Source: Chloroflexus aurantiacus J-10-fl (GTDB lineage Bacteria > Chloroflexota > Chloroflexia > Chloroflexales > Chloroflexaceae). Taken from it: DNA of 64,000 nt. Both the position numbers and the translations under genes were made by a program. The stretch spans positions 1,488,001-1,552,000 of the forward strand of contig NC_010175.1 in NCBI RefSeq assembly GCF_000018865.1. Reading direction: 5' to 3'. The first letter of the stretch is position 1. Each line of letters begins with the position of its first letter. The notes beneath the pieces were generated by a model that saw only the letters and a list, made by a program, of their open reading frames with translations, was not told the origin of the DNA and searched no databases. Below, piece after piece: positions 28,285-47,937 of this stretch.

Positions 28285-31200
28285 CTATCGCCCAATCAAC
28301 GGAATGAAATAGCGATGCTGCTGGCTTATCGTACCACGAGACTGTAACGGGCCGTACTCATTGACGGTACCATCCAGTTCAATTTCGACCAACCAGTACG
28401 AGTAATCCACCCCGGTCAGCGCAGTGGTATCACTGAAGCGATAACTGGCACCATTGGTCGTACTGCCTCGCGCCGGAATTGGGATTGGTGTCAACAATTG
28501 CGCTTTATCCCGGCCAGCAGTTGAGCGATAGATCAGGAAGCCACGGGTATTAATTTCAGCCCCGGTTGTCCAGACGATGTCCCAGCCACTACCGGATGTA
28601 ACCAGACGTAACTCGGTGAGCACAATAGCGGTTGGCGGCCCACCGGGTGGCGGCGTGCGCAGACGGGTCGGATCGTCAGGATCGGTGGTCGTTGGATCAT
28701 CACTCGGCGTTGAGGAGATATTCGCGCCCGTAGCCGTGGCCTGGTTGCTGATTTCAGTGACACTGTCGGGTAGAGGATTGTTTACCTGCACCCGGAAGGT
28801 AATGGTTAGCACCGCATTCACAGCCAGCTCGTCTAAGGTGACTTCCACGGCGGCATCGCCGGTAGTATTGCCACTCACAATCACCGCAGTTGGCGGCGTC
28901 GCTGCCACACTGCCCACGACGAGCGTGGTATTTGCATCGGGCGTGTCACTGACATTCAGCCGGAGTGCAATCTCTGGGCCGGTATTGGTCAGCACCAGGG
29001 TGTACTCAATAACGTCACCCGGCCCGGCCAGATTATCACTGTTGCTATCGACAACCAGGGATGCCCGTTTGATAAGGTCAACTGTGGTTGGACCAGGCAC
29101 GTAGGTGCTATCACTCGCGCTCACTTGTGGGCGCGGCTGGTTGGCGCTGTCGGTGTAGTTCAGCGTCGCCGTGTTGGTCAGCGTGGTCGGACCGGTCACG
29201 GTGGTGTCCACCTGCACGGTGATGCTCACGCTGGCGCTTGCCCCCGCCGCGAGTGTGCCGAGGTTAAAGGTCACGGTACTGCCGCTCACGTTACAGGCTG
29301 GACTACAGCTCTGGTAGCTTACGCCAGCGGGTAAGGTGTCACTCAACGTGATGTTATACGCATCACCCACCCCGGTGTTAGTAAAGGTCAGCGTGTAGGT
29401 CAATGTCTGCCCTGGAGCAGTTACGGTTGACCCATCCGTCTTACTCAGCACGATGGTCGGCTGCGCCGGTACCTGTGTTGAGTCACTCGCGCTCACTTGT
29501 GGGCGCGGCTGATTGGCGCTATCGGTGTAGTTTAGCGTCGCGGTATTGGTCAGCGTGGTCGGGCCGGTTACTGTGGCGTTCACCTGCACCGTCGTGCTCA
29601 CGCTGGCGCTATCCCCCGCCGCGAGTGGGTTGGTCAGGGTGAAGGTCACCACCCCACCGCTCTCGCTACACGTCCCACTCAGGCTGCCGAGGTTACAGCT
29701 CTGGTAGGTCACACTGGCGGGTAAGTTATCGCTCAGCGTGATGTTGTATGCATCACCCGCGCCGGTGTTGGTAAAGGTCAGCGTGTAGGTCAACGTTTGA
29801 TTGGGGGCGGTGACCGTCGAGCCGTCGGTCTTACTCAGCACAATGTTCGGCTGTGCCGGTACCTGCGTTTGGTCAGTCGCACTCACCGACGGACGGACAT
29901 TGCCGTTGACATCGGTATAGTCGAGCGTCGCGGTATTGGTCAGTGTGGTCGGGCCGGTCACTGTGGTATTCACCTGCACGGTGATGCTCACGCTGGCGCT
30001 TGCCCCGGCTGCGAGTGGATTGGTCAGGGTGAAGGTCACCACCCCACCGCTCTCGCTACACGTCCCACTCAGGCTGCCGAGGTTACAGCTCTGGTAGGTC
30101 ACACTGGCGGGTAAGTTATCGCTCAGCGTGATGTTGTATGCATCACCCGCGCCGGTGTTGGTAAAGGTCAGCGTGTAGGTCAACGTTTGATTGGGGGCGG
30201 TGACCGTCGAGCCGTCGGTCTTACTCAGCACAATGTTCGGCTGTGCCGGTACCTGCGTTTGGTCAGTCGCACTCACCGACGGACGGACATTGCCGTTGAC
30301 ATCGGTATAGTCGAGCGTCGCGGTATTGGTCAGTGTGGTCGGGCCGGTCACTGTGGTATTCACCTGCACGGTGATGCTCACACTGGCGCTTGCCCCGGCT
30401 GCGAGTGGATTGGTCAGGGTGAAGGTCACCACCCCACCGCTCTCGCTACACGTCCCACTCAGGCTGCCGAGGTTACAGCTCTGGTAGGTCACACCGGCGG
30501 GTAAGTTATCGCTCAGCGTGATGTTGTATGCATCACCCGCGCCGGTGTTGGTAAAGGTCAGCGTGTAGGTCAGGCTCTGACCGGGGGCGGTGACCGTCGA
30601 GCCGTCGGTCTTACTCAGCACAATGTTCGGCTGTGCCGGTACCTGCGTTTGGTCAGTCGCACTCACCGACGGACGGACATTGCCGTTGACATCGGTATAG
30701 TCGAGTGTCGCGGTATTGGTCAGCGTGGTCGGGCCGGTCACAGTAGCGTTCACCTGCACGGTGATGCTCACGCTGGCACTTGCCCCGGCTGCGAGTGGGG
30801 TGGCGAGGTTAAAGGTCACAGTACTGCCGCTCGCATTACAGGTTCCACCTAGACTGCCCACACTACAGCTCTGGAACGTCACCTCCGGCGGCAACGTGTC
30901 GCTCAGCGTGATGTTGTATGCCGGAGCGAGACCTGTGTTGGTGAATATTAGCGTATAGGTCAATGCCTGCCCTGGAGCAGTTACGGTTGAGCCGTCCGTC
31001 TTGCTCAATTGCAGCAGTGGTTGATTGACAACCGTCGTATCGGTCGCCTGGAGCTGTGGATACTGGTTGCCAAAGCCATCCCGATAATCGAGTACGGCAG
31101 TATTGGTCAGGGTGACGGAAGAGGTAAGTGATGGATTAATCTGCACCGTGATCGTGATCGTGTCGCTGGCGTTATGATTCAGAGGATCGGTACGGGTGTA

Positions 31201-32439
31201 CGTAACCGTACCTCCAAAGGGGTCGCCGCTATGCGTACATGTGCCGTTCGGTGCCACACAACCTTGAAATATCACATCCGCCGGCAGCGTGTCGATCAGC
31301 ACAACGTTGTAGGCCGGGCCAGGGGCAGTAATACCGTTGCCGGTATTGGTGAAGGTCAGAGTATAAGTCAGCACTTCACCCGGCGCAGCGAAGTCTACCC
31401 CATCCGTTTTCGAGAGGGTCAAGCCTGGGGCCGGCGGTGGCTCAAGATACACTGGAACACTTGACTGACCTTCCTGGATGAACTGATTATTGTTGTTAAC
31501 GCAGCTCACAATGCGCCACCAGCCTGGTTCGGGGTTATTAACAACATCACCAGCACGTGTTGCATTGGTACTGCCATTCCAGCGTGTCGCACCTGACACG
31601 GTACCTGCGCTTCCTCCTGTCAATCCGCTAGCATCGAACGTAGCACTCGGCGCGTAGTATCTGACCCGCACATTCCCATCCATGTCAAAATTATGAAATG
31701 TGACAGTGGGTTGACCAGGGGCAACATACTCAAACAGAGTCAGACATTGGGCACCAGCACCACTGTGCTGATACGTTGTGTAAGCCATCCCAATCGACAG
31801 CTCATCACCCGTACCAGGCTGACCATCAGGATTGTCGTAGTTGGGCAATGGATCAGTAGCTGGATTGTTATCGTTATCCGCACCAAACCGGAGGCGCCAG
31901 CTATTGTCAGCATTCCCGTTGGTTTGCGCACGCAGGATGTAGGTACCACAGCCTGTATTGCCAACGTCGATGGTGTAAAACCGGTTCCATTGTGGCCCAA
32001 CACTACCCGAAGTGTATATTGTCTGCTGGAGTGACCCAGGGGCACCTGGCCCCGGCGCTGTCGGATTGGTTGCCGGATTGAGTGATGTGCCTGGCTGGTA
32101 GATTTCAAATACGGTGCTACCGGCAGTGGTTATTTCATCAGCCACACCAGCACCTGATGTATTATTGAGATCGGGATGGAACAGATCGACATAAATGGGC
32201 GTACCAGAAGGCCAGCCACATGGTACATGCAGGGTAATGTAGTGATAACCATCGCCCGCTGTCGAATTTGTGTACCAGTCGCCGATACCAAGTGCACGAT
32301 TTGGACTTGAAGTCTGGAGGTAGAACACTGAACCGGCGGGTGGTAGTTCAACCGCCTGAGTGGTATCCTTCGACCATACAGGCAACAACAAGGCTGTGAC
32401 CCAGATCAGCAAGGTCATCATTGTGGTGCGACGTTGCAT
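28285..32439 (-). CDS. Giant DUF11-repeat secreted/surface protein
   Basis: 1384 residues; ATG with GGAGAAAA upstream and a consensus-like promoter. Signal peptide, a roughly 330-residue N-terminal region of unknown type, then a string of about six DUF11 domains ('LSKTDGSTVTAPGQ(T/S)LTYTLTFTNTG' type, about 130 residues each). One more divergent DUF11 and a fibronectin-like module follow before the C-terminal 'HRYFIPLIGR'. Several repeats are nearly identical at DNA level. Such proteins are usually cell-surface or sheath components; adhesion is a guess. There is no LPxTG-type anchor, but the tail matches that of the HYR protein at 33690. Confidence 0.87.
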   Translation of the reverse strand: MQRRTTMMTLLIWVTALLLPVWSKDTTQAVELPPAGSVFYLQTSSPNRALGIGDWYTNSTAGDGYHYITLHVPCGWPSGTPIYVDLFHPDLNNTSGAGVADEITTAGSTVFEIYQPGTSLNPATNPTAPGPGAPGSLQQTIYTSGSVGPQWNRFYTIDVGNTGCGTYILRAQTNGNADNSWRLRFGADNDNNPATDPLPNYDNPDGQPGTGDELSIGMAYTTYQHSGAGAQCLTLFEYVAPGQPTVTFHNFDMDGNVRVRYYAPSATFDASGLTGGSAGTVSGATRWNGSTNATRAGDVVNNPEPGWWRIVSCVNNNNQFIQEGQSSVPVYLEPPPAPGLTLSKTDGVDFAAPGEVLTYTLTFTNTGNGITAPGPAYNVVLIDTLPADVIFQGCVAPNGTCTHSGDPFGGTVTYTRTDPLNHNASDTITITVQINPSLTSSVTLTNTAVLDYRDGFGNQYPQLQATDTTVVNQPLLQLSKTDGSTVTAPGQALTYTLIFTNTGLAPAYNITLSDTLPPEVTFQSCSVGSLGGTCNASGSTVTFNLATPLAAGASASVSITVQVNATVTGPTTLTNTATLDYTDVNGNVRPSVSATDQTQVPAQPNIVLSKTDGSTVTAPGQSLTYTLTFTNTGAGDAYNITLSDNLPAGVTYQSCNLGSLSGTCSESGGVVTFTLTNPLAAGASASVSITVQVNTTVTGPTTLTNTATLDYTDVNGNVRPSVSATDQTQVPAQPNIVLSKTDGSTVTAPNQTLTYTLTFTNTGAGDAYNITLSDNLPASVTYQSCNLGSLSGTCSESGGVVTFTLTNPLAAGASASVSITVQVNTTVTGPTTLTNTATLDYTDVNGNVRPSVSATDQTQVPAQPNIVLSKTDGSTVTAPNQTLTYTLTFTNTGAGDAYNITLSDNLPASVTYQSCNLGSLSGTCSESGGVVTFTLTNPLAAGDSASVSTTVQVNATVTGPTTLTNTATLNYTDSANQPRPQVSASDSTQVPAQPTIVLSKTDGSTVTAPGQTLTYTLTFTNTGVGDAYNITLSDTLPAGVSYQSCSPACNVSGSTVTFNLGTLAAGASASVSITVQVDTTVTGPTTLTNTATLNYTDSANQPRPQVSASDSTYVPGPTTVDLIKRASLVVDSNSDNLAGPGDVIEYTLVLTNTGPEIALRLNVSDTPDANTTLVVGSVAATPPTAVIVSGNTTGDAAVEVTLDELAVNAVLTITFRVQVNNPLPDSVTEISNQATATGANISSTPSDDPTTTDPDDPTRLRTPPPGGPPTAIVLTELRLVTSGSGWDIVWTTGAEINTRGFLIYRSTAGRDKAQLLTPIPIPARGSTTNGASYRFSDTTALTGVDYSYWLVEIELDGTVNEYGPLQSRGTISQQHRYFIPLIGR
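29407..30966 (-). repeat. 390-bp tandem repeats encoding DUF11 domains
   Basis: Units start at about 29407, 29797, 30187 and 30577 with a period of 390 bp (130 codons). The units 29797-30186 and 30187-30576 differ at only a few positions; the outer ones are more diverged. Near-identity implies recent duplication or gene conversion, so copy number may vary between strains or be mis-assembled. Confidence 0.85.
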
Positions 32440-33689: not shown

Positions 33690-36600
33690 TCAGCGCACAA
33701 TGACGGGTACGAAGAGACGATGTTGCGGTGCTTCAACCGGCGGTGATCCCGGTGGCGTGATCGTCACCGTAAAGCTGCCACTCGCCACATTGCCGGCAGT
33801 ATCGCTGGCAGTACAGGTGACGGTCGTCGTACCTATCGCGAAGGTGCTACCGCTGGACGGCGTACAGCTCACCGGTACCGGCCCAGCCACCGCATCGCTG
33901 GCAGTGGCAGAGAATGTCACTACCGCGCCCGCCGGCCCACTTGCTTCACGGGTGAGGTTGCCGGGCAGGGTGAGGGTTGGCGCTGTCGTGTCCGCCACCG
34001 TCACCGTAAAGCTGCCACTCGCCACATTACCGGCGGTATCGCTGGCAGTACAGGTGACGGTCGTCGTACCTAGCGCGAAGGTACTGCCGCTGGACGGCGT
34101 ACAGCTCACCGGTACCGTCCCGGACACCGCATCGCTGGCGGTGGCGGTGAAGGTTACTACCACGCCTGCCGGCCCACTTGCCTCACGGGTGAGGTTGCCG
34201 GGCAGGGTGAGGGTTGGCGCCGTGGTGTCCACCACCGTCACCGTAAAGCTGCCACTCGCCACATTGCCGACAGTATCGCTGGCAGTACAGGTGACCGTCG
34301 TCGTACCTATCGCGAAGGTGCTGCCGCTGGATGGCGTACAGCTCACCGGTACCAGCCCAGCCACCGCATCGCTGGCGGTGGCGGTGAAGGTTACTACCAC
34401 GCCTGCCGGCCCGCTCGTCTCACGGGTGAGGTTGCCGGGCAGGGTGAGGGTTGGCGCTGTCGTGTCCACCACCGTCACCGTAAAGCTGCCACTCGCCACA
34501 TTACCGGCGGTATCGCTGGCAGTACAGGTGACGGTCGTCGTGCCTATCGCGAAGGTACTGCCGCTGGACGGCGTACAGCTCACCGGTACCGTCCCGGACA
34601 CCGCATCGCTGGCAGTGGCAGAGAATGTCACTACTGCACCGGCAGATGTCTCTGCTTCAACGGTAACTTCTTCCGGCAAAACGAGCGTCGGTGGAGTTGT
34701 ATCGATGGTAAACGTGAGCGATACATCGTCACCCAGTGCAATACCACCGACACTGCTCAACGTGGCACAGGCAATCAGCGTATATTGACCATCCGGCAGA
34801 GGCTGAATGGTAGGAACAATGGTCGTTGTCGCATCGTTGACCGATACACTGGCGATCAGATTGCTGCCGGTGCTGCTGCATGAGGGAAGATCGCCCGACC
34901 ACAACCGATAGTTTGCCTGATCGGTACCGTTGCGCAAACGTTCGGCAAAGATGAGGCTGAGTTCGGTGATAGTGGCATTGACGACATCGCCATCTTGCAA
35001 TGGCGTCGTGCTCGCTCCATCACTACACACGACTGCTGATACGGTCGGCGGCACAAAGCTCAGGCGGCGTCCGAAGATCTCAAACTGTCGATCAGCCGCA
35101 ACACCGTTCAGATAGCCGGCCCAGACGGTCATAAAGCGTCCACTACCGGTTGCTGCAAGTCGCGGCGCAACGCGATGCCAGTTCACCGGATTCAACGTGG
35201 TCGAGCTGGCGATCTCTACTTCGCCACCGGGTAATGGACGGGCTAAGCCGCTCGAACTTGCCTGAAACGCGGTTGGTGCCAGTGCTGGCGTCGTCCCGAT
35301 CTGAAAATTCGCGCCAATCGTTGCCAGCGGCGTACTCCCGTCAGAGTCAGCATCGAGACGCTGACCGTAAATCTCGAAGCGATCATTCACGCTGGGATCA
35401 CCGCGCCAGATTACCAGCCATTCCTGATTGAACGGATCATAGGCAACATCAACATCAAGTCCCTTGAAGCGGTTGTCAGTACCATTAGAGCTAAAACTGA
35501 CCTGTTGCCCACTGACACTCGTCCCGAAGCCGGTGGGCTGGCGCAAACTGACATACACCTCGTCAAAACCGTTGACGTTATCACCGAACCACGCAACCAG
35601 ATACTGATTGCGGTCAGGATTGTAGGCTACAGCAGGTCGATAGGCATCACAACTGGCATTATCACATCCGGTAGCTTCCCCGATCTGGCTAATCCGATGA
35701 TCATCGCGATAGTTTGCACCAATGCCGGGTAACAAATGAGCCTGCGTGCCGTCGGCAGCCAATACCTGACCATAAATCTCAAACTCGCCATCTTCTACCC
35801 CGCTGGCGTTGTTATCGGCTGACCAGACCACAAACCATTGATTATCTACGCTGTTGTAGGTAATCGCTGGCGTCACTGCATCATAGTCGGGTCGCACATA
35901 ACCGGTAGCCGAGGTTGTAAAACCAGCCCGGCTGATGAGGAAATCGTTTGGCCCAATCTGACCGACAAAGCGCCGGGTGGGATGGGGGTCGAGCGAAAAA
36001 CGCTGACAGCGAATTTCAAACTCACCACCCTGCTCGGCGAACGGTTGCGAAAGAAACCCATTCGCCCGGTCATCAGACCAGCAGATCAGAAATTCGCCAT
36101 TCTGGCTATTGTAGGCAACCGCTGGCGAGAATGCGTCCCAATCGGGGTTACGGCTTTCAAAATTGTTTTGGTAAAACAACACATTGATCTCGGTGATCCG
36201 GTCATCCTGGGGATTCCCACACTCATCGCGGATCAGGAGATCGCCATCGGCAGTCACAACCTGGACATAGATCTCAAAGGCACCGGCGGCACGATAACCG
36301 GCCCGACCGGCATCCGGGTTGTTGCAGTCAATCAGAGGATTGGTATTGTCGGCTGTCCATGCCACCAGAAACACGTTATCACGTGCGCTATAGCTCACGA
36401 CGGGGCTATAGGCATCGAAGGGGTCAGTCGAGCGATCATTGCCGTTGCGACTGATCCGAAAAGCGGTACCACTGACTTCAGCCCCGGATGCCGTAGGTGC
36501 GATCAAGGCACCGGTCGCTGCGTCAATAAACTGCCCATAAATCTCGAACTCATTCGAGCCACCTCCCTCACGAGGACGCGCATAGACAACCAGATATTGA

Positions 36601-36833
36601 TTGGTCACCGGGTTGTAGGCAATGTCCGGTTCAAACGCATCCCGTGTCGGTGCAACATCACTAATCCGCTCGTCATTCTCGCCAATCATACTGTTCAGCG
36701 AGGAACGGGCACTGATACCCGCCGATGTATCAAGCACCGGTGTTGATGATGTATGCGCTGCACTGATAGCTGGTATCGTCGCCAATAGCAGCCAGATTGC
36801 TCCCAGAGCAAGCGCGATCCATCGTGGTCGCAT
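33690..36833 (-). CDS. Secreted protein with propeller-like repeats and four HYR domains
   Basis: 1047 residues, AAGGAGAATCT before the ATG, signal peptide. Residues about 60-600 hold roughly seven copies of a 'AYNP..NQYLVVW.AD...EFEIYGQ' module, suggesting a beta-propeller. A Big/CBM-like region follows. Residues about 710-1030 are four almost identical 79-residue HYR (Ig-like) domains ('TCTPSSGSTFAIGTTTVTCT'). The chain ends in 'HRLFVPVIVR', very like the giant DUF11 protein's 'HRYFIPLIGR'. Probably a cell-surface or matrix protein; no enzymatic motif was seen. Confidence 0.85.
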   Translation of the reverse strand: MRPRWIALALGAIWLLLATIPAISAAHTSSTPVLDTSAGISARSSLNSMIGENDERISDVAPTRDAFEPDIAYNPVTNQYLVVYARPREGGGSNEFEIYGQFIDAATGALIAPTASGAEVSGTAFRISRNGNDRSTDPFDAYSPVVSYSARDNVFLVAWTADNTNPLIDCNNPDAGRAGYRAAGAFEIYVQVVTADGDLLIRDECGNPQDDRITEINVLFYQNNFESRNPDWDAFSPAVAYNSQNGEFLICWSDDRANGFLSQPFAEQGGEFEIRCQRFSLDPHPTRRFVGQIGPNDFLISRAGFTTSATGYVRPDYDAVTPAITYNSVDNQWFVVWSADNNASGVEDGEFEIYGQVLAADGTQAHLLPGIGANYRDDHRISQIGEATGCDNASCDAYRPAVAYNPDRNQYLVAWFGDNVNGFDEVYVSLRQPTGFGTSVSGQQVSFSSNGTDNRFKGLDVDVAYDPFNQEWLVIWRGDPSVNDRFEIYGQRLDADSDGSTPLATIGANFQIGTTPALAPTAFQASSSGLARPLPGGEVEIASSTTLNPVNWHRVAPRLAATGSGRFMTVWAGYLNGVAADRQFEIFGRRLSFVPPTVSAVVCSDGASTTPLQDGDVVNATITELSLIFAERLRNGTDQANYRLWSGDLPSCSSTGSNLIASVSVNDATTTIVPTIQPLPDGQYTLIACATLSSVGGIALGDDVSLTFTIDTTPPTLVLPEEVTVEAETSAGAVVTFSATASDAVSGTVPVSCTPSSGSTFAIGTTTVTCTASDTAGNVASGSFTVTVVDTTAPTLTLPGNLTRETSGPAGVVVTFTATASDAVAGLVPVSCTPSSGSTFAIGTTTVTCTASDTVGNVASGSFTVTVVDTTAPTLTLPGNLTREASGPAGVVVTFTATASDAVSGTVPVSCTPSSGSTFALGTTTVTCTASDTAGNVASGSFTVTVADTTAPTLTLPGNLTREASGPAGAVVTFSATASDAVAGPVPVSCTPSSGSTFAIGTTTVTCTASDTAGNVASGSFTVTITPPGSPPVEAPQHRLFVPVIVR
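33764..34711 (-). repeat. 237-bp tandem repeats encoding HYR domains
   Basis: Four units begin at 33764, 34001, 34238 and 34475, with a constant period of 237 bp (79 codons). They are almost identical over the first three units. The G+C-rich, near-perfect identity suggests recent amplification or conversion. Confidence 0.9.
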
Positions 36834-38015: not shown

Positions 38016-39101
38016 TTGAAGTACCAACTGACACTCCATCCGGTTGCAGGAGCCTGGCATAGCGAGCGCCTGACGCTGACGATTCAGGGTGAGCGCATTG
38101 TTGATGTTGAGTATCGCCCTTCGGTCGGTGATGGGGCGTATGCCCGGCGTCTTATGCAAGGGGGAATAACAGGCGCATTGCAGGCTGCACGTCAGGTTTG
38201 CCCACATTGTCATGTGGCCCACACCCTGGCATTCAGCCTGGCTATCGAGCAACTCGCCGGCGTCACCGCACCGCTCCGTGCGCAGGCGGTGCGCGTTATG
38301 CTGGCCGAACTGGAACGCGCAACCTCTCACATCAATACGCTGGCGGCACTGGCAACTGCGCTCGGCCTGACCGATGCGGCCCGGCTCAGCCGGTTAACGA
38401 CCCGTTTGGGCTTGATCGCGCTGAAACTCTCTGGCAATGACGAGGCCGCGCTGATTCGGCCAGGCGGCCTGCTGGCTGATCCCAGTGAATCGGCGCTAGC
38501 CGAAACGGCTCAGGCCATCAACGATTTATTGCCGAGGATGATAGCGGTTGCCGAGCAGAGCATTCCACGCCGCTCACTGCTGGCGCGCACGGTAGATATT
38601 GGCGTGTTGCAGCCAACCGCTGCCCGGCAGTTTGGTCTGGCCGGCCCACTGGCCCGAGCAAGTGGGGTTGCCACTGATGTCCGCATTCAGGAACCTTATG
38701 CTGCTTACAACATCCTGGCCCCGGCACTGGTAACCGAGGAGGGTGGCGATGTGCATTCCAGGGCAGTGGTTCTGTTGCTCGAAGCAATAGAGTCGTTGCG
38801 GCTGGTTGTCCGCTGGTTGCAGAATCTCCCAATTGGCAACGTGTATGAAGAGGTTCCGTTGGTGGCCGGCGAAGCAACGGTGACGGTTGAAGCGCCGCGT
38901 GGCTCATTGCGCTATACTGTGCGTAGCGATGGTCAGCGTTTGACCGGGGTGGAGATTGGTATTGCGCCACAGCTTGATCGATTGCTGGCTCGCTCGCTGT
39001 TGCAGCAGGCAGCGGTTGATGATGTGATGCTGATCGCCATTTCGACCGATCCCTGTACGGCTTGCTGGCAGTCGGCAACCTACCTGATCGGACGTAGTTA
39101 G
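38016..39101 (+). CDS. [NiFe]-hydrogenase large subunit/NuoD-like protein
   Basis: 361 residues from a TTG with AAAGGAGG four nt upstream. Length and layout match group 4 hydrogenase large subunits (EchE/HycE C-terminal part) and NuoD. Both Cys pairs that hold Ni-Fe are present: Cys62 and Cys65 in 'QVCPHCHVAHTLAF' and Cys347 and Cys350 in 'STDPCTACWQ'; NuoD proteins lack them. However the upstream 'R-G-x-E' proton-relay segment reads 'ARRLMQG' here, so the usual Glu seems absent. It heads an operon with four membrane subunits. No small-subunit or maturation gene is nearby. Hydrogenase activity is therefore uncertain; an Ehr-type (hydrogenase-related) complex is a likely alternative. Confidence 0.75.
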   Translation: MKYQLTLHPVAGAWHSERLTLTIQGERIVDVEYRPSVGDGAYARRLMQGGITGALQAARQVCPHCHVAHTLAFSLAIEQLAGVTAPLRAQAVRVMLAELERATSHINTLAALATALGLTDAARLSRLTTRLGLIALKLSGNDEAALIRPGGLLADPSESALAETAQAINDLLPRMIAVAEQSIPRRSLLARTVDIGVLQPTAARQFGLAGPLARASGVATDVRIQEPYAAYNILAPALVTEEGGDVHSRAVVLLLEAIESLRLVVRWLQNLPIGNVYEEVPLVAGEATVTVEAPRGSLRYTVRSDGQRLTGVEIGIAPQLDRLLARSLLQQAAVDDVMLIAISTDPCTACWQSATYLIGRS

Positions 39102-39187
39102 TGTCCAGAACCCTGATGCCGCATTGCAGAGCCGTGTCTATGTAGTGTGTCACCCGGTGGAGTACCGGGTTGTTATATCGAGGATGC

Positions 39188-40891
39188 ATGGGTCTTATCG
39201 CTAGCTTTATCAGCCTGATCACAGGTGCCGTGTTCTGTTTTGGGCTGGCCCGGATTGGAATTACCCGCCGTCTGGCATTGCTGGCCGCGCTGGCGACCGG
39301 CCTGGCAGCTATTGGTGTCATCGCCAATCCGCTAGAAACGACCCCGGCAGAACCGCTGTCGAGTATCGGTGCATTATCGCTCGTTCTGCCGGCAGCGCCC
39401 GAACTGAGTGAACGAGCAATTGCGGTCATGTTCCTGGTTGGGGGCACCCTTGGCTTACTGGCCCTGGCCGTGGTTGTACCGCCGGAGGTAGAGGGATTTG
39501 GCGCGTTGTTCGGCTGGCTCTTGCTGGCCCTGACTGCCGCCCTGCTCAGCTTAACCATTCCACCGCTCAGCTTTCTGACCCCGTTGAGCTGGGCACTGGC
39601 GGTGATTGCCGCTCATGGAGCGCTGATTGCCGCAGGCGTTGATCCAGCACCTGATCAATTACCGCCCCATTTGATTGCCGGCGGGCTAGCCGTGGTCGCT
39701 GTGACAGGTCTGATTGCAACGAGCGCCGCCTTACCTCCAGACACCCTGCCACCAACTACGCTGGTCGGACTGGCGCTGTTCGGTGCGCTGGCTTTGGCCG
39801 GAGCACCTCCCTTTGGCGGTGCGCGCAGTGCTTTTACCGCGGCACCGGCCCTGGTGGCTGCGCTCATGAGCGGACTGACCCTGCCCACTATTGGGCTTGG
39901 CTTTATCGTTCGTTTCCTGCCACAGATACCTCCTTTGCCGGCATCAACCGGTTTCATCATGGCTGCTGTTGGCGCATTTGGGGCACTGGGGGCAGCATTC
40001 ACCGCCCTCAATGCGCAGTCCGGTCGCGATCTGGTCGCTCGCCACGGCGCGTTGCAGGCAGGAGTGGTCGTATGCGCGGCTGCCCTCAATGAACCGTTAG
40101 CTGGTCTGGCAGCACCGGCCCTGTTGTTGTCGCTCCAGCTCCACGCCGTTGCCGGCGGATTGGTTTGCGCTGCGATTGAACGACTGCAAGGTTCCGACCT
40201 GCTCGATGGCAAGCAACCGACAGCACAACTACCGTTCATTGGCCTGATCTGGCTTGTGACAACGGCAGCCGCAACCGGTCTACCGCTGACCTGGAGCTTT
40301 TGGGGATGGCGCTGGCTGATAGAGGCCGCCACCAGCCATCACGTGTGGATTATTGGCCCCTTGATGACTGCGGCAGTTATCGGTTTTGCCGCCGGATTGC
40401 CACTGCTCATTCGTTGCTGGCAGGGGAAAACACCAGTTTATACACATTGGCCAGAGGGTATGCTAAGCCTGCCGATCCTGATCCCCTTGATCCTGGCCGG
40501 GTTTGTGCCCTGGCTGGCCTGGCCACTCTGGCTGAGCTGGTCACCGTTCGCCCCACCGGTCATGCCTGCCGAACCACTTGCCTGGCCTTTTATCGGCACG
40601 GCCATCGCGACCGGCGTCATAAGCTGGTTCCTGTTACGCAAGGCCAATCCCTACCAGACAGAGCGTATGCCTGAAGACCCGGCAGTCAGTCCAACCTGGC
40701 AAGGCATGGGAGAACTCTTGCAGGGCATGAGCGAGCTGGCCGATGCCCGTCGGCTATTCAGCCTTCTCGGTCATGGGATCGACCGCGTAAGCAGCTCGCT
40801 CCATACCATTATGATCATCTTTGAGCAACGGTATTATCTATTTGGGGTGATGATTGGCCTGTTGGCAATCCTGTTTCTGATGGCGCAATAG
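39188..40891 (+). CDS. Antiporter-like membrane subunit (NuoL/M/N, HyfB type)
   Basis: About 567 residues from the ATG at 39188 (GAGG five nt before). Extremely hydrophobic, about 14 or more TM helices, with the general pattern of Mrp/complex I proton-translocating subunits ('GAPPFGGARSAFTAAPALVA' in the middle recalls the family's G.PP..GF.SK). A final TM ('YYLFGVMIGLLAILFLMAQ') after a cytoplasmic loop resembles the extra C-terminal helix of HyfB-like subunits. The conserved charged residues are weakly kept, so ion pumping is not certain. Second gene of the operon. Confidence 0.65.
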   Translation: MGLIASFISLITGAVFCFGLARIGITRRLALLAALATGLAAIGVIANPLETTPAEPLSSIGALSLVLPAAPELSERAIAVMFLVGGTLGLLALAVVVPPEVEGFGALFGWLLLALTAALLSLTIPPLSFLTPLSWALAVIAAHGALIAAGVDPAPDQLPPHLIAGGLAVVAVTGLIATSAALPPDTLPPTTLVGLALFGALALAGAPPFGGARSAFTAAPALVAALMSGLTLPTIGLGFIVRFLPQIPPLPASTGFIMAAVGAFGALGAAFTALNAQSGRDLVARHGALQAGVVVCAAALNEPLAGLAAPALLLSLQLHAVAGGLVCAAIERLQGSDLLDGKQPTAQLPFIGLIWLVTTAAATGLPLTWSFWGWRWLIEAATSHHVWIIGPLMTAAVIGFAAGLPLLIRCWQGKTPVYTHWPEGMLSLPILIPLILAGFVPWLAWPLWLSWSPFAPPVMPAEPLAWPFIGTAIATGVISWFLLRKANPYQTERMPEDPAVSPTWQGMGELLQGMSELADARRLFSLLGHGIDRVSSSLHTIMIIFEQRYYLFGVMIGLLAILFLMAQ

Positions 40892-41012
40892 AAACCCGGT
40901 AACAAGACGCGGCCCGGATAGGTGAAGAGTAACCTTCACCTACTCAAAATAAAACCCGTTGCAGCTTGTTCGGATAGACGTTCAAGATCGGATTGGTCAA
41001 GGACAACACTGT

Positions 41013-41735
41013 ATGGCGATAGATCCCTGGATTATCGTGATCGGTATCTCAGCCGGCGGCATCTTACTATTACGCGACTGGCGCCTGACCGTTGGGCTGC
41101 TGTTGCTCAACTATTTCGGCCTGGCCGGCCTGCTCAACGAACAGCCGTTCATCGCGACCGATTTCACCCAATTCAACGTTAGCTCGCTGGCATTGATCAA
41201 GATGGTGACCGGTGTTTGTGCTGCGCTGATTCTTGCCGTTACAGCATTGACCTTTTCGCGCGACTACGGCCTGGAAAACCTCGATGAATTTGGGCAGGCC
41301 GAATTACGACGTGCGTTACGAGCTGCAACCCGGCAGCGTTCAACCGAATCGACCCGCCTGAATGAATATCTCCTACCGTTCTTATCGGGGGTCGCTGGAC
41401 TGACTGCCAGCCTGATGTTACCCATCATCTATCCGATTGCCCCCAGCCCCACTCTCGATTTTGCCTGGTACTGGCTGGTTCTCAGTGGCGTGCTAGCAAT
41501 GGCAACCGCAAACGATGTATTGAAGATCGGCCTGGGGATGCTCCTCTGCACGAGTGGTATCGATCTGTTGTACAGTGCGGTTATCAGTGCCCCAACCGCG
41601 AGCGGACTGAAGATCATGCCACTCTTGCTCCTCAGTATTGTGCAGATATTGCTGGCGCTGGCCATTGCCTACCTGGCCGGATTAGTCTACGGGCGGTTGA
41701 AGACGCTTACGATCAGTGAGCTATACCGCGGATAA
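41013..41735 (+). CDS. Small membrane subunit, HyfE/NuoK-like
   Basis: About 240 residues from the ATG at 41013 (AAGGA upstream); the longer frame from 40959 lacks one. Roughly seven TM helices with one cytoplasmic loop rich in charges ('LDEFGQAELRRALRAATRQR'). The segment 'NDVLKIGLGMLLCTSGIDLL' recalls NuoK/HyfE helices that carry buried polar residues. Assignment rests on size, hydropathy and position between two antiporter-like subunits, two nt before the next gene. Confidence 0.55.
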   Translation: MAIDPWIIVIGISAGGILLLRDWRLTVGLLLLNYFGLAGLLNEQPFIATDFTQFNVSSLALIKMVTGVCAALILAVTALTFSRDYGLENLDEFGQAELRRALRAATRQRSTESTRLNEYLLPFLSGVAGLTASLMLPIIYPIAPSPTLDFAWYWLVLSGVLAMATANDVLKIGLGMLLCTSGIDLLYSAVISAPTASGLKIMPLLLLSIVQILLALAIAYLAGLVYGRLKTLTISELYRG

Positions 41736-41737
41736 CT

Positions 41738-43189
41738 ATGCTATACCTGCTGCTCATCTTCTTTCCAATTAGTATGGCGTTTAGCACCTTTCTGCTGCGC
41801 CGCATGCCACGTATTGCTGTTGGTTTGGGCATTGGCACGCTGATTGTTGAACTATTGCTCGCAATACAGGTGCGAGTAGATGACCCGGTGCGAGTTTTCG
41901 GCGTTACCATGCTACTCAGCCCATTGCACCAGATTTTTCTGTTTCTCTTTCTGGGCATAGGGATTGTGGTGCTGATCGCGGCGTGGGTATTTCCACACGG
42001 CGAGAACTTCAGCGCAACCGGCCTGCTCATCATCGCCCAAACTGTTGCCATTCTGCTCATGCAAGACTCGTTTGTGACGGCTTTAATGCTGGTGGCAATC
42101 GCGCTCACTGCGGTGCTGGCAATTGTCGATCTGCCGGTCGGGGCAGGTGTGCTGGTAAGCAGGCAGATACTGGCAGCCGCGCTGAAGTATCTGGTGTTAA
42201 TGGTAGTTGCCGGCATCCTGCTCTACGCCGCCTACGTACTCACCGATCTATTCCGACCGGGCGAACTACCAGGTCGAATTTCACCGGCTCGCTTTATCCT
42301 GGCGTTGCTGGCAGCCGGTTTTGCCCTCCGTTTGGCGCTCGTACCCTTCCACGCATGGCTGGTCGATCTCATTACCTATGCCGGTTCACTGGCGTCAGTG
42401 TTGATCATTGCTTTGCCGGTACCGGCCAGTTTGCTCGTCTTCCTGCTCACCCTGCAAAGTTACCCTGCGTTGCTCTTTGAAGGCGGGCAGGCCCTGACTG
42501 TGCTACGCATTGGGGCTGCGTTCAGTGCCTTACTGAGCAGTGCGCTGGCGCTTACCGCTGCTTCACTGCGCCAACGGCTGGCCTATCTGATTGCCGGCCA
42601 TTGCGGTGTTATCTTCTACAGTTTTGCATCTCTGTCACTCATTGGGCTAAGTGGAGCCGTCTTCGGTGCAATTAATATCGCGCTTGCCATCACAACGGTA
42701 CTTATCAGCCTGACTCTGCTGGAACATGCTATTGGCGGTGGCACCATCGAGTCGTACAACGACCTGATCTGGCAACGCCCTGTCGCCGGGGCAGGATTAC
42801 TGGCAGGTGGCCTGGCCTTAACGGGATGGTTGCCATCACCAGGCGGAAGCGCCTACCTGCTGGCGCTTCAAGCTGCGGCTGACTCCGGTCTGGTTGAGGT
42901 GTTCATTCTGGTGGCGGCAATGAGCCTGGCGACACTGACCCTGATCCAACTGACCGTCCAGTACCTGATTGGATCGCGTAGTAAGGCCATCGAAGTCGAG
43001 CCGCGCCTGCTGGGTGAAACTGAGGTCGACCGTCCCTCGCCCGTTCGGCTCTCACCAGAGCCGTGGACTGCCAGATGGCTGATTATTGGGTTGATAGCAG
43101 CTATGCTGGTGATTGGGATGACCCCGCAAACATTACTGACCACGATTGAAGCCGCCGTGCGCAGCCTGGCAGCACTGAGTTCGGGATAA
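41738..43189 (+). CDS. Antiporter-like membrane subunit (NuoN/MrpD/HyfF type)
   Basis: 483 residues, ATG two nt after the preceding stop. About 14 TM helices in the arrangement of complex I/Mrp antiporter subunits; 'RLALVPFHAWLVDLITYAGS' corresponds to the family's conserved 'P.H.WL.dAy..ap' helix. It is expected to be an ion-translocating module. It ends 22 nt before the NuoH-like gene. Confidence 0.75.
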   Translation: MLYLLLIFFPISMAFSTFLLRRMPRIAVGLGIGTLIVELLLAIQVRVDDPVRVFGVTMLLSPLHQIFLFLFLGIGIVVLIAAWVFPHGENFSATGLLIIAQTVAILLMQDSFVTALMLVAIALTAVLAIVDLPVGAGVLVSRQILAAALKYLVLMVVAGILLYAAYVLTDLFRPGELPGRISPARFILALLAAGFALRLALVPFHAWLVDLITYAGSLASVLIIALPVPASLLVFLLTLQSYPALLFEGGQALTVLRIGAAFSALLSSALALTAASLRQRLAYLIAGHCGVIFYSFASLSLIGLSGAVFGAINIALAITTVLISLTLLEHAIGGGTIESYNDLIWQRPVAGAGLLAGGLALTGWLPSPGGSAYLLALQAAADSGLVEVFILVAAMSLATLTLIQLTVQYLIGSRSKAIEVEPRLLGETEVDRPSPVRLSPEPWTARWLIIGLIAAMLVIGMTPQTLLTTIEAAVRSLAALSSG

Positions 43190-43211
43190 CCGGTGGTCAT
43201 GGGAGGCAAAA

Positions 43212-44036
43212 TTGACGACTGACGTAGTTATAGCCGGATTGGTTGCGCTTTTGCTATATCCGGGTATATTATTTGCAATAGGGTTAAGTATCGGTTATCG
43301 AATCCTGTCCGGTCGGCCACTGCCATTTCCCGGTAAAATGATCGTCAGTCCTGATCTCACCGGCGGTCTGGGGTTGACATCGCTGGCGTTGATCGGTGGG
43401 GGTCTGGCCGGTTTGACCTGGCCAGGGCATCCGTGGTCATTACCGTTCGGTTGGATCGGTAGCTGGGCATTGTTTGAACTGGCTGCATGGTTACCATTGT
43501 TGCCGGCCCTGATGGCAGGTGCACCTCGTACAGTCCGTGCTGCGCTACGGGAAGCGCAAATCGGCATGCTGGCACGGGCGATACTGTGGGGAAGTATTGC
43601 CACCGGCCTGGCCGCCGCCGACAATCTCAATGGCTGGTCACTAAGCGGACACGGCTTCGTCCTGGTGAGTGCTCTCCTGAGCCTGCCGGCAGCTATCAAC
43701 TGGGGACCATTCGGCCCTGAACCATCACTTGGCCCGCAGGGGATCACGGAAGGTCTTTCCACCCGGGCGGCAACAACGCTGACGTTCGCCCGCGATACAC
43801 TGGCTGCGGCACTCATTGCCACCATCTGGCTGGCCGGTTTCCCAATAGCAGTGCTGCCAGTGTGGCTGGGCTTGTTGGTGATTGGGATTGGGAGTATCAT
43901 CACCACACTGGGATTACGGTGGCTCAACGGACGCTTTCCGCGCTTTAGCGTGCCGGCTGCGCTGCGAGTCATCCTCATCGGGGCAGGTAGCCTGGCCGGA
44001 GTGGCCCTGGTAGCCTTGTCTGTGGGGCAGATGTAG
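43212..44036 (+). CDS. NuoH/HyfC-like membrane subunit
   Basis: 274 residues from a TTG with GGGAGG five nt upstream. Six to eight TM helices and the length (NuoH about 325, HyfC/EchB about 290) fit the proximal membrane subunit of group 4 hydrogenases that links the peripheral arm to the antiporters. 'PLPFPGKMIVSPDL' near the N-terminus and 'GPFGPEPSLGPQGITEGLST' after the fourth helix resemble the quinone-site loops. The Glu/Asp residues of true NuoH are only partly preserved. Fifth gene of the operon. Confidence 0.6.
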   Translation: MTTDVVIAGLVALLLYPGILFAIGLSIGYRILSGRPLPFPGKMIVSPDLTGGLGLTSLALIGGGLAGLTWPGHPWSLPFGWIGSWALFELAAWLPLLPALMAGAPRTVRAALREAQIGMLARAILWGSIATGLAAADNLNGWSLSGHGFVLVSALLSLPAAINWGPFGPEPSLGPQGITEGLSTRAATTLTFARDTLAAALIATIWLAGFPIAVLPVWLGLLVIGIGSIITTLGLRWLNGRFPRFSVPAALRVILIGAGSLAGVALVALSVGQM

Positions 44037-44070: not shown

Positions 44071-45126
44071 ATGACCGATGTCATCGTTGTCGAAGGACTT
44101 ACCAAAAGCTACGGTCATGTCTCGGTCTTGCGCGGTGTTCATCTGCGGGTTGCAGCAGGTGAAGTGTACGGCTTGCTGGGACCGAATGGTGCCGGCAAGT
44201 CAACGCTTATCCATCTGTTACTCGGTTTTTTATACCCCGATAGCGGGCGGATTCGCGTACTGGGAAGCGCTGATCTCGAAGCACAGCGTCGGCAGATTGG
44301 CTACATCCCCGAACGGCAGCGTTATCACAACTACTACACACCACGCGAATACCTTACCTTCCTCGGTCGTTTCGATGGCATGCCGGAAACCATCTTACGC
44401 AAGCGGATCGACGAGCTACTAGAGCTAACCGGCTTAACTGCTGTTGCCAACCGCTACCTGCGCACCCTCTCGAAAGGCATGATTCAACGGTTGGGCATCG
44501 CCCAGGCCCTGCTTACCGATCCCGATCTTTTGCTAATCGATGAGCCAACCAGCGGCCTGGATCTTGACGGCCAGCAAGAACTGCTCGTCTTGCTCAACGA
44601 TGTTCGCCAGCGCGGGCACACTGTCTTGCTCTGCACCCATCGTCTTGCTGAAGTTGAATATCTCTGCGACCGGGTCGGTATTTTAACCAACGGTAAGGTT
44701 GCGCTTGAGGTGAATGTCGCCGATGTACGACACATGACCGGCAGTATGGTCGTCCAAACAGGGCCACTCGACCTGCCATTACGCCAGCGATTAGAGATGA
44801 TCGGACGTGAGATTCGCTGCGATGAACAGGCGGTTGTGATCAGTCCGCATTCGCCTGAATTACAGGCAAAAGTTCTTCAGGTCTTGATCGAAGCGAATGT
44901 GACAATCCGGGCGCTAGAGCCACAGTTGAGTCGCCTGGCGCAGATCTATATGCGCACAGTGCGTGGTGAACCGGTGGATAACCTGCTGGTTACCGACCAG
45001 GCGCCGCTACGTGCTGTCCTGAACGAAGCCATCAATCCGGCACCAACTGATGACATTGATCCGCTCTTGAAACGATTGCTGCAACGGCGAGAGGGCGACT
45101 CCAGACAAAAGGATGGCCACCAATGA
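44071..45126 (+). CDS. ABC transporter ATP-binding protein (ABC-2 type exporter)
   Basis: 351 residues, GGAG before the ATG. Walker A GPNGAGKST, signature 'LSKGMIQRLGIAQAL', Walker B 'LLLIDEPTSGLD' and the switch His ('LCTHRL') are intact. The C-terminal 100 residues form the extra domain (DUF4162-like) common in CcmA-type drug or polysaccharide/NatA exporters. It starts 34 nt after the NuoH-like gene, so it is probably transcribed with the membrane complex. Its stop overlaps the permease start (ATGA). Confidence 0.9.
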   Translation: MTDVIVVEGLTKSYGHVSVLRGVHLRVAAGEVYGLLGPNGAGKSTLIHLLLGFLYPDSGRIRVLGSADLEAQRRQIGYIPERQRYHNYYTPREYLTFLGRFDGMPETILRKRIDELLELTGLTAVANRYLRTLSKGMIQRLGIAQALLTDPDLLLIDEPTSGLDLDGQQELLVLLNDVRQRGHTVLLCTHRLAEVEYLCDRVGILTNGKVALEVNVADVRHMTGSMVVQTGPLDLPLRQRLEMIGREIRCDEQAVVISPHSPELQAKVLQVLIEANVTIRALEPQLSRLAQIYMRTVRGEPVDNLLVTDQAPLRAVLNEAINPAPTDDIDPLLKRLLQRREGDSRQKDGHQ

Positions 45127-45902
45127 TCCGAACCGGTAAACAAGCTATACTCCTGACCGGCTTCACCTTACTTGAGTATTTGCGCTCTGGCCGGTTCTTT
45201 CTCGAATTGACCATCGTGATTGCCAGTTATGTTGTATTCCTGCGCCCTACCGGAACCCCAATGAATGCCGGCTATCTGTTTACTGTGGCAGGCATCTTTG
45301 GACCAGTTCTGGCCATTCTGAGTACCGGTTTTATGATCGGCCTGGGTGATCGCCCCCAGGGCTACATTATCCTGTCGCACAACGTCAGTCGTGGTGCGTA
45401 TCTGATCGGGCTATTTTACGCTGCCTGTCTTGTTGTACTGGTTATGTACGGAATACTCTGCCTGCTGGTAGCCCTGACAAATCGAGTGGTTGATCTCGAT
45501 CTCATTGGCTGGTTCCTGGCCAGCTTACCGCTTATTCTCAATATCGGGTTGTTCTCCGCCCTGACGATCTTACTTTCGCCTCTGGTGTTGGGTACTGGCT
45601 GGCGTTTGTTCGTGCTTGCCCTGATTGCATTGGCACTATCGAGTAACGTGATCGGCGGCCCAATCATCAATCAACTCGAGGAGATCAATCCCTTTTTGGT
45701 TACGATCTTACGCGCCGTGCAAACCGTGTTGAGTGGGCCACTGGTTCCAATCTTTTACGGCTACCAGATTAGCATCAGCGGTAGTTTCAGTGAGGTCTCG
45801 GTCTGGGCTAACCTGGTCGCGCAGAGTTCACTCTTACTGGCATTTCTAGGACTGGCCCGCTATGCGTTTAACCAGCGTGACCTGATCTTCAGCGTGTCGT
45901 AG
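45123..45902 (+). CDS. ABC-2 type transporter permease
   Basis: 259 residues, ATG overlapping the ATPase stop. Six TM helices with short loops, as in the membrane partner of NatA/CcmA-like ATPases. No substrate motif. Its stop lies inside the 3' end of the convergent M23 gene (14-nt overlap). Located at the end of the hydrogenase-like operon; a Na+/metal or metabolite export role for the complex is an inference. Confidence 0.85.
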   Translation: MIRTGKQAILLTGFTLLEYLRSGRFFLELTIVIASYVVFLRPTGTPMNAGYLFTVAGIFGPVLAILSTGFMIGLGDRPQGYIILSHNVSRGAYLIGLFYAACLVVLVMYGILCLLVALTNRVVDLDLIGWFLASLPLILNIGLFSALTILLSPLVLGTGWRLFVLALIALALSSNVIGGPIINQLEEINPFLVTILRAVQTVLSGPLVPIFYGYQISISGSFSEVSVWANLVAQSSLLLAFLGLARYAFNQRDLIFSVS

Positions 45903-47688
45903 CATCAGTCACCGGCACGAACGCCACCGCGTCAGCCCAGATACCACGTCGGCGATCACCGGCAATGGTACCGGTCGCAACCAGCGGTGAGGATGCCGGG
46001 TCAAAGGTATAGACTCCCAAATCTGCCCACCAGTTGCGTTCGGCTTCCAGATCAACGGTCACCACTGTCTCACCGTCTTGATGACGAATGAGAAAGCGGG
46101 CTTCACGCGAGTCGTCATAGCCGTTAAGGGCAAACGGTACGTATGCCAGCACCCGGTATTGCCCGCCAGTCGGAAGCACTGGTTGCCAGACAGCCACCAG
46201 GGGGGCCGCGAAATCGCTGAAACGCCAGGGACGAGTGATGCTGGGTGTTAACGTTGATGGAGCAAAGTGGGCACCACCGGCGTAGCCCATATCAATCACC
46301 TGCCAGTCACCACTCAGCAAAAAGCCGGGATCGCGATCATCAACCACGACCACACCCGGCGGCGGTGGCGCACAAGGTGATGGCATATCGACCCACAGCC
46401 AGACACTGATCTGACCAACCGGGTTCAGCGCCCATGGATCGGGGTCAGTACCACACCAGCCATACGGATCGACATCACGCCCAAGGTACTGCACCTGCAA
46501 ATGGAGATGCGCACCACGGGCACAGCCAGTATCGCCGGCAATCCCGATCACTGCCCCCCGCTCCACCATTGTTCCAACCGTCACACTCACCCGAGCCAGA
46601 TGCCAGTAGAGCGTGCGATAGCCGTTGCCGTGTTCGATAATCACTGCCCCGGCAGGCGTCGCACAACCATCATCAGAATAGCCGGCAAACACGACCTGAC
46701 CGGGTGCCGCAGCCAATACCCGATCCGGAGGCCCCATTGCATAATCCCAACCAGTATGGCCATCATAGGCGAACGCCCGGTCAGTTTCAGCGCGTCCCCA
46801 AAAGGTATGCAGAGAGCCATTCGTGCGGAGAAAAGGGGCATCGTGATCGAAAAAGGAGGTAACCGGGAAGTTTCGTTCGGTCGGACGGGTGAGAAACGGT
46901 TCAGCGGGTGGCGGCCAATCGGTTGGCTCCAGCCGTGGATCGAGGTCGAACAGACGCTGGTAAGTTGGCGCAACGGCCACGAGCAGTGCTTCGAGACGGT
47001 TGGAAGTCGTTGTTGGTGCCAACGCTCGACTAAGGACATAGCGACTCAGGTCCGTTCCGGGCGGGAGCGCAAGGGTGCTCCCATCGGCAAAAGTAAGCGG
47101 AGGTAAAGCCATCGGCCCCAGCAATGCATAGTCGCGCAAGGCAGCCCGTAGTTCGCGGGTCAGCCAGCGTAACTGCGCAAACAGACCGCGTCGATTCCCA
47201 TTCTCGCCCCGAAACCCGGCAGCCCAGGCCATCTGATCACTGCTGGGGTTAGGGGTGCTGAGAACGCCACTCTGCAGATCCATGAGACTTAACAGTAATC
47301 GCGGGCTGACACTGTAGAGATTACTCAGCGACACCAGAACATCGGTAAACGAATGGCTGCGACCGCCAATAGTGATACGCATCGTTGCCAGCGGACTCTG
47401 GCGCGCTTCCAGAAATGCCTGAATCTCCGGTCCGCTGAAATTGTGGTCGTAGCTGAGCCGTTGTGGATCGAAGAGGGGATGCACGGCAGGTTGCGGTGTG
47501 GCCGTCGGTGCCGGCGTGGGTGTTGCCAGCGGTGTGGCGGTTGGTACCGGAGTGGCAGAGGTAGCGGTCGGCACCTGATTGACAACAGTCGGCGTGATCA
47601 CCGACTGCGGTGTATTTGTCGGCGGAGACGGCAGCGGAGCCGCACATGCAGTTAGCACGATAGCGAGGGTAAGTAACAGGTAACGCAT
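45889..47688 (-). CDS. M23 peptidase (LytM-like) lipoprotein
   Basis: 599 residues from the ATG at 47688; the frame continues upstream without a ribosome site. The lipobox LTAC is followed by a Thr/Pro/Ala linker. The M23 domain lies at about residues 300-430 with the zinc-site residues in 'DGHTGWDYAMG' (His, Asp) and 'GAHLHLQVQY' (HxH). A C-terminal beta-rich domain of about 150 residues follows and carries 'WWADLGVYTFDPASSPLVAT', a carbohydrate-binding-like or golvesin-like module. It would cut peptide bridges in peptidoglycan outside the membrane. Confidence 0.9.
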   Translation of the reverse strand: MRYLLLTLAIVLTACAAPLPSPPTNTPQSVITPTVVNQVPTATSATPVPTATPLATPTPAPTATPQPAVHPLFDPQRLSYDHNFSGPEIQAFLEARQSPLATMRITIGGRSHSFTDVLVSLSNLYSVSPRLLLSLMDLQSGVLSTPNPSSDQMAWAAGFRGENGNRRGLFAQLRWLTRELRAALRDYALLGPMALPPLTFADGSTLALPPGTDLSRYVLSRALAPTTTSNRLEALLVAVAPTYQRLFDLDPRLEPTDWPPPAEPFLTRPTERNFPVTSFFDHDAPFLRTNGSLHTFWGRAETDRAFAYDGHTGWDYAMGPPDRVLAAAPGQVVFAGYSDDGCATPAGAVIIEHGNGYRTLYWHLARVSVTVGTMVERGAVIGIAGDTGCARGAHLHLQVQYLGRDVDPYGWCGTDPDPWALNPVGQISVWLWVDMPSPCAPPPPGVVVVDDRDPGFLLSGDWQVIDMGYAGGAHFAPSTLTPSITRPWRFSDFAAPLVAVWQPVLPTGGQYRVLAYVPFALNGYDDSREARFLIRHQDGETVVTVDLEAERNWWADLGVYTFDPASSPLVATGTIAGDRRRGIWADAVAFVPVTDATTR

Positions 47689-47778
47689 AGCAGCATTATA
47701 GCAAGAGTTTGGGGAGACGTTGGAAAGAGAGGCGAGTCTTGCCTGGCAAGACGAACCCCTGCTGACCCAGTGATGGAA

Positions 47779-47937
47779 GATGCACCACAGAGACACAGAG
47801 GGCACAGAGGCTTGAAGCGCTGGGTTTCGTTTGCGTCTGCCGCAGTCGGAAGCGATGGTTCAGGCATCAATGGGCTTCCCAGTGGAGTGGTAGGAGATGC
47901 ACCACAGAGACACAGAGGGCAGAGAGGCGTGAAGCGC
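47779..47937. repeat. 42-bp direct repeat, two copies
   Basis: 47779-47820 and 47896-47937 match except at a few positions (GATGCACCACAGAGACACAG... through GAAGCGC). The CCACAGAGACACAGAG core resembles a short A/G-rich repeat known to recur between genes in various bacteria. No gene spans it. Confidence 0.8.

Follow-up and report, generated by a model that had tools for sequence, protein, structure and literature searches.

A group-4 hydrogenase-derived gene set in Chloroflexus aurantiacus, its missing small subunit and its neighboring ABC transporter

We analyzed a 64,000-nucleotide stretch, hereafter the window, of the single-contig genome (5,258,541 bp) of Chloroflexus aurantiacus J-10-fl (NCBI RefSeq assembly GCF_000018865.1, contig NC_010175.1, positions 1,488,001 to 1,552,000), which carries the genes hycE, antA, hyfE, antB, nuoHl, abcA and abcB in this order. 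The first five, called the module here, encode a large subunit and four membrane subunits related to those of complex I and group-4 [NiFe] hydrogenases, and the last two encode a presumed ATP-binding cassette (ABC) transporter, AbcAB. On sequence grounds, the module derives from a group-4 [NiFe] hydrogenase complex of the Hyf/formate hydrogenlyase (FHL) type, and a loss of hydrogenase function in the Chloroflexus form is well supported. We favor, with a probability of roughly 0.52, the explanation that the module is a hydrogenase-derived, nonredox membrane assembly without canonical pumping that works with the ABC transporter.

Gene set, ancestry and distribution

The five genes of the original prediction were found at positions 38016 to 44036 as open reading frames, all on the plus strand, and domain matches bore out the large subunit and the antiporter-like subunits. 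The prediction had the gene types right but placed the two antiporter-like genes side by side, whereas hyfE lies between them. HycE matches the Pfam family Complex1_49kDa (NuoD/49-kDa family) with 107 bits and scores on the NuoD models under their cut-offs. Its predicted structure (pLDDT 93.7) has E. coli HycE (7z0s_E; Z 45.5, rmsd 1.9 over 348 residues) as its best PDB match among those listed, with complex I chains behind it at Z 43.3 and less; the 50 matches listed are all HycE or complex I/NDH-type chains, and other families may match too. AntA and AntB match Proton_antipo_M with 30 and 38 bits, respectively. Nothing over the cut-off was returned by a Pfam search with HyfE and NuoHl. HyfE is weakly similar to Oxidored_q2 (E of 0.6 for the window protein, E ≤ 1 in 6 of 23 members), aligns to E. 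coli HyfE and is conserved over 74 rows. Comparison of the NuoHl alignment by hhalign with single NuoH sequences gave no significant score, and the fold search decided its identity instead. The predicted structure (pLDDT 92.7) has the NuoH fold, with a Foldseek probability of 1.00 and TMq values of 0.55 to 0.68 among the 50 rows listed (complex I, NDH, MBS and FHL entries), the matched chains being assigned as NuoH, ND1, MbsM or HycD from chain names. NuoHl is thus taken as NuoH-type because of its predicted fold.

The gene set was found across the order of this Chloroflexus genome, and hycE was detected in 41 of 41 genomes of the window's family and in 84 of 158 genomes of the class (E ≤ 1e-28). 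This co-occurrence check across Chloroflexi, proposed with the original prediction, also revealed a conserved operon; as hycE is present in every genome of the family and the operon is conserved, the gene set is not a product of chance. We took 84 neighborhoods, many of them cut by contig ends and some with automatically taken reading frames whose N termini are overlong, and sorted them into the window's family (f1) and five others (f2 to f6), of which f2 is presumably the Herpetosiphon type. The nearest named relatives of the genome are in Chloroflexus (C. islandicus and three metagenome-assembled genomes, with 71 to 76% identity of hycE). A quick hycE tree (71 rows, 18 open forks) set the 49 large subunits of the module apart from NuoD and from the 20 closest group-4-like loci in the rest of the phylum (SH-aLRT 94); the phylum search covered 400 evenly drawn genomes. 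All 20 of these loci have a small-subunit match, and 18 have a ferredoxin-type (HyfH/NuoI) match. Other Chloroflexota (L100 to L103, L105, L108, L109 and L114) have a fuller group-4-like set in one conserved order: NuoK/HyfE, NuoL, NuoN/HyfB, small subunit, large subunit, NuoH/HyfC and ferredoxin-type subunit.

The ratio of nonsynonymous to synonymous substitution rates (dN/dS) against three other Chloroflexus genomes was 0.05 to 0.21 in 16 of 21 gene comparisons, values that are rough, with dS near saturation there and saturated in the other five. These ratios place the module under purifying selection where tested.

The small subunit

As first reported, no NuoB, NuoC or NuoI homologue was found near the module, nor any ferredoxin homologue (window positions 25000 to 60000), and the HypD gene of the genome is about 2.2 Mb away. 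A suggestion made at that time, that electrons reach the large subunit through a partner encoded elsewhere, was not borne out by genome-wide profile searches. In this genome, a profile built from the small subunit that relatives have in the module found only the two NuoB proteins and HoxY (58, 52 and 18 bits), compared with 128 to 183 bits in 10 searched genomes having the subunit, and no orphan small subunit turned up elsewhere in the genome. The four NuoB-like genes all adjoin large subunits of their own, namely, those of two complex I sets, of the Hox hydrogenase and of another NiFe hydrogenase, taken as Hya-type.

The original prediction named a small-subunit gene in the operon of a close relative as evidence that would count against it, and such a gene is present in relatives. 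Of the 84 loci, 30 have a short HyfI/NuoB-like gene within the module (4 in f1, 1 in f2, 5 in f3, 17 in f4, 2 in f5 and 1 in f6), between antB and nuoHl wherever nuoHl is also in the operon, and 9 of 10 products tested exceeded the cut-off of Oxidored_q6 (PF01058). In 28 genomes from which both antB and nuoHl were recovered (27 of f1, 1 of f4), no small subunit was found: the gap between the two genes is -77 to 465 bases, and the profile returned nothing above 59 bits in these genomes. Because the operons of relatives carry the gene, also inside the same family (four genomes), a derived loss is the best account of its absence. Its presence and absence imply at least three changes on the hycE tree (39 rows scored, G048 and cut loci being left out), the rows that lack it being the Chloroflexus clade, G030 and G056.

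In eight f2 genomes the operon is split: hycE-antA-hyfE-antB form one locus, and nuoHl is part of a second one together with the ABC permease gene. The possibility that these genomes lack NuoH and the small subunit was rejected, as profile searches found nuoHl in eight of eight and the small subunit beside it in seven of eight at the second locus; it was not found in G048 (f2, 76% complete). The family was therefore counted as a case of relocation, not loss, giving three changes on the tree instead of four. Four of these second loci (L169:6762-9764, L170:2492-5607, L171:1143-3745 and L172:6734-9736) hold nuoHl with the ABC pair, and three of the four include a small subunit without the cluster cysteines. 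Overall, 26 of 33 small subunits have all four cluster cysteines and 7 have an altered set, namely, all four f2 sequences examined, both from f5 and one from f3. In f5 (L083 and L086), the large subunit keeps its four cysteines and the small subunit is without most or all of its own; to judge from these residues, the latter is probably Fe-S free and kept as a structural part.

Active-site and membrane-arm residues

We tabulated the HycE residues for 82 of the 84 loci, excluding the fragments of G009 and G020. All four cysteines reported for the window protein are there (C62, C65, C347 and C350), but they do not form a conserved site of the family: the set is complete in 52 of 82 members and has lost one or more in 30. 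Cys occupies the C347 position in 79 members and the C350 position in 77, the first CxxC varies, and G017, G018, G021 and G022 are without three or four of the cysteines. The acid of the beta1-beta2 loop (HycE E193 position) is Glu in 5 of 82 members versus 21 of 22 outgroup rows, and the terminal Arg (R537 position) is Arg in 11 of 82 versus 21 of 22; both are Ser in the window protein. The D529 position is Asp in 53 of 82 members versus 22 of 22 outgroup rows. The positions of HycE H284, R395 and E437 are kept in 78, 82 and 82 of the members; a passage of the FHL structure paper (PMC9474812) assigns these three residues to a pathway that complex I has conserved as well.

The window genome contains HypD and two other NiFe hydrogenases. 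The search for HypD was negative in 32 of the 84 module genomes; 22 of the 32 are of high quality (at least 90% complete, at most 5% contaminated). A four-Cys hycE is present in 18 of the 32 (12 of the 22 high-quality genomes). A further NiFe hydrogenase large subunit occurs in five of the 32 (G003, G020, G056, G066 and G086), and none was found in the other 27 (E ≤ 1e-12). In 15 of these 27 genomes, including 10 of high quality, hycE has all four cysteines. Genomes of this kind are not expected to make a NiFe(CN)2CO site.

The key positions of the antiporter-like subunits were read by alignment to the genome's own NuoM (Glu of transmembrane helix [TM] 5, Lys of TM7, Lys of TM8 and Glu/Lys of TM12). 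They are A, L, T and W in AntA and V, R, P and Y in AntB of the window, so that all eight are without Glu or Lys and one is Arg. The TM5 Glu persists in 2 of 78 antA rows and 1 of 74 antB rows, and the TM8 Lys is absent from the residues listed for both. A first reading as near-total loss of the pump residues was dropped after a recount, which showed basic residues at TM7 of AntB and often at TM12. The divergent f6 member (L087), in which AntA and AntB both retain the TM5 Glu, is possibly a transitional form.

For NuoHl, 53 rows of at least 255 aa were counted, in a register fixed by an Arg common to all 53 members and 23 of 23 outgroup rows. Nine residues past it, 22 of 23 outgroup rows have the E-channel Glu (HyfC E146, NuoH E157, HycD E138) and 53 of 53 members have Arg (R122 in the window protein), with three alignment modes in agreement. 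According to a passage of PMC9474812, in vivo H2 production fell by 98% when HycD E138 was mutated. The HycD E189 position is Ala in 53 of 53 members, and the E201 position is acidic in 48. A NuoH profile found nothing in six f5/f6 genomes, a search that had no positive control and shows little.

Linkage to an ABC transporter and competing explanations

The ABC pair directly downstream was not part of the original prediction, which stands as to what it observed and only in part as to how it interpreted it. abcA starts 34 bases after nuoHl, and abcA and abcB overlap by 4 bases. abcA follows nuoHl in 45 of 49 f1 and f4 loci, the other 4 stopping at contig ends. abcB accompanies nuoHl in 9 of 9 f2 genomes, 8 of them with the split operon, in which the ABC pair stays with nuoHl and not with hycE. 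Of 82 genomes in the order, 78 encode a member of the AbcB (permease) family and 75 encode it along with hycE; 76 genomes outside the order gave one weak match.

We infer from these data an absence of activity in the module and a partnership with AbcAB. A group-4 hydrogenase complex would have given rise to a Chloroflexus form stripped of redox catalysis and of the canonical proton path. Its subunits may assemble as one HycE-capped membrane arm with the NuoH-type protein as anchor, and this arm would bind, anchor or gate AbcAB, powered by the hydrolysis of ATP. The remaining cysteines would be structural or would ligate something other than a NiFe(CN)2CO site. A more specific form of this idea, which we regard as less likely than not, is that the rebuilt hydrogenase, its E-channel charge reversed, is the membrane base of an order-specific ABC-2-type transporter. 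It would be a complex-I-type machine that has given up electrons and the known proton path and holds an ATP-driven exporter in place, gates it or passes force on to it.

Several observations weigh against a nonredox assembly tied to AbcAB. The Chloroflexus hycE keeps the four cysteines and the canopy Arg (R478) and Asp (D529) positions, which is odd for a useless site. The absence of HypD may be an assembly gap in the five genomes that have another hydrogenase. Most existing small subunits keep the complete ligand set, and a redox role may survive outside the Chloroflexus clade, e.g., in Roseiflexus-like genomes. As for the transporter, abcB is on other contigs in f3 (five hycE genomes) and was searched for and not found in f5 and f6 (six genomes). 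Of the four genomes of the order without detected hycE, three (G054, G063 and G065) have abcB, and G065 is rated 100% complete; common descent explains part of the co-occurrence of the two genes. The roughness of the dN/dS values and the polar residues of the membrane subunits, considered next, belong here too.

It may be that the module is an ion-translocating variant, as proposed originally, that is, a nonredox secondary transporter or channel (Mrp-like) using the remaining and new polar residues of AntA, AntB, HyfE and NuoHl. A changed ion path is possible on the residue evidence: the membrane subunits are under selection, basic residues occupy TM7 of AntB (Arg in 71 of 74) and TM12 of AntA (Arg in 61 of 78) and AntB (Lys or Arg in 46 of 74, including 7 of the 28 genomes without small subunit), and AntB D131, HyfE D186/K189 and NuoHl E89/R109/R113/R122 are conserved. 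Still, known mechanisms lend this proposal little support, with the TM5 Glu and TM8 Lys lost as described, both TM12 positions of the window proteins replaced (W and Y), Arg in place of the E-channel Glu in every member and no NCBIfam antiporter model at its cut-off, and we consider it unlikely, if well worth keeping in mind. A sensor, in which the CxxC pairs bind Zn or Fe or form disulfides and gate the ABC transporter by redox state or metal, would fit the ABC linkage and the near-constant second CxxC next to a variable first one; the four genomes that have lost three or four cysteines indicate that sensing is not general, and this idea appears quite improbable.

The alternative raised by the retained cysteines and canopy residues is a working redox enzyme supplied with electrons by the NuoB of complex I, a Hox/Hya small subunit or a soluble ferredoxin. 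HypD is present in the genome, and Herpetosiphon-type genomes have a split small-subunit locus. Nevertheless, each NuoB-like protein has its own large subunit, a module-type small subunit is missing genome-wide, the loop acid and terminal Arg are gone, and 10 high-quality genomes with a four-Cys hycE yielded no HypD and no other hydrogenase. A working redox enzyme is very unlikely, and for the Chloroflexus form the evidence supports the original suggestion of a complex without redox function. A subunit and active-site residues have been lost in steps, as might be seen in a decaying remnant without function, but dN/dS of about 0.05 to 0.2 and open frames in many species leave this hardly credible.

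The hydrogenase-derived assembly resembles several known systems. It shares with E. coli FHL and hydrogenase 4 the HycE fold (7z0s_E) and the antiporter-like, HyfE-like and NuoH/HycD-type membrane subunits; in contrast to them, it has no small subunit, ferredoxin subunits or NuoC domain and has lost the loop Glu, the terminal Arg, the E-channel Glu and most antiporter key residues. Ehr is described in passages of PMC6349859 and PMC10284858 as a group-4-like complex whose NiFe ligands are not conserved, and it is suspected there of coupling redox chemistry with charge translocation; HydDB, as presented in PMC5037454, sets Ehr apart as not metabolizing H2. In the module, 30 of 82 large subunits have lost one or more of the ligands but the window protein has lost none, so that the cysteine set differs among members of one family; in addition, a whole clade lacks the small subunit, the pump residues have mostly disappeared and an ABC pair is linked. 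The subunits are homologous to NuoD/H/K/L/M/N of complex I, but the operon is without NuoB, C and I, and the genome has two separate complex I sets. Mrp cation/H+ antiporters also have antiporter-like subunits without redox subunits, whereas the module has HycE- and NuoH-type subunits and most of the key Glu/Lys residues are absent. Two complex I clusters are reported in a passage of the C. aurantiacus genome paper (PMC3150298), and two such clusters and two NiFe hydrogenases are reported in one of a C. aggregans transcript study (PMC8004040). The operon goes unmentioned in those passages and in that of the C. aurantiacus proteome paper (PMC9316378), and no paper on the module was found in the open-licence literature.

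What defines the complex I/group 4 hydrogenase superfamily is the coupling of redox chemistry to ion pumping. Here, a graded natural series, under purifying selection where tested, runs from forms with a cysteine-complete small subunit to forms that have none and few known pump residues; it raises the question of how a membrane arm functions when no electrons reach it and of which residues have a structural role and not a catalytic one. The module should not be filed as a hydrogenase, and in Chloroflexota, CxxC pairs and a HycE-like fold alone are not grounds for such an annotation.

Coordinates and neighboring genes

Table 1. Window coordinates of the module, its small-subunit junction and the ABC pair
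Feature	Position	Strand	Description
hycE	38016..39101	+	HycE/NuoD-type large subunit, 361 aa; C62/C65 and C347/C350
antA	39170..40891	+	Antiporter-like (NuoL/M/N-type) subunit; Proton_antipo_M match
hyfE	40959..41735	+	HyfE-like membrane subunit; NuoK-like identity weak by sequence
antB	41738..43189	+	Antiporter-like subunit; Proton_antipo_M match
antB/nuoHl junction	43190..43211	none	22 bp; site of the small-subunit gene in relatives
nuoHl	43212..44036	+	NuoH/HycD-type membrane anchor; R122 aligns with the E-channel Glu
abcA	44071..45126	+	ABC transporter ATPase; DrrA/GldA-like, under the cut-offs of those models
abcB	45123..45902	+	Membrane protein, presumed ABC-2-type permease; no Pfam/NCBIfam match

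No further operon gene was consistently conserved in the 84 neighborhoods, the widest other family adjoining the module in 8 genera. A role in gliding was considered, members being gliding filaments, and found no supporting evidence. A converging gene for a peptidase-like lipoprotein (by eye) occupies window positions 45889 to 47805 on the minus strand, and its family lies near the module in five genera. Elsewhere in the genome, L014:5085-9973 (about 1,662,084 to 1,666,972) holds a complete HoxEFUYH-type set. In a passage of PMC3150298, a nuoF gene (Caur_1185) at a distance of 800 genes from nuoE is counted as part of the second complex I; by its position, this nuoF is probably the HoxF gene of the set. 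Two long, apparently secreted proteins with many near-identical internal repeats (by eye) are encoded on the minus strand of the window at 28285 to 32439 and 33690 to 36833.

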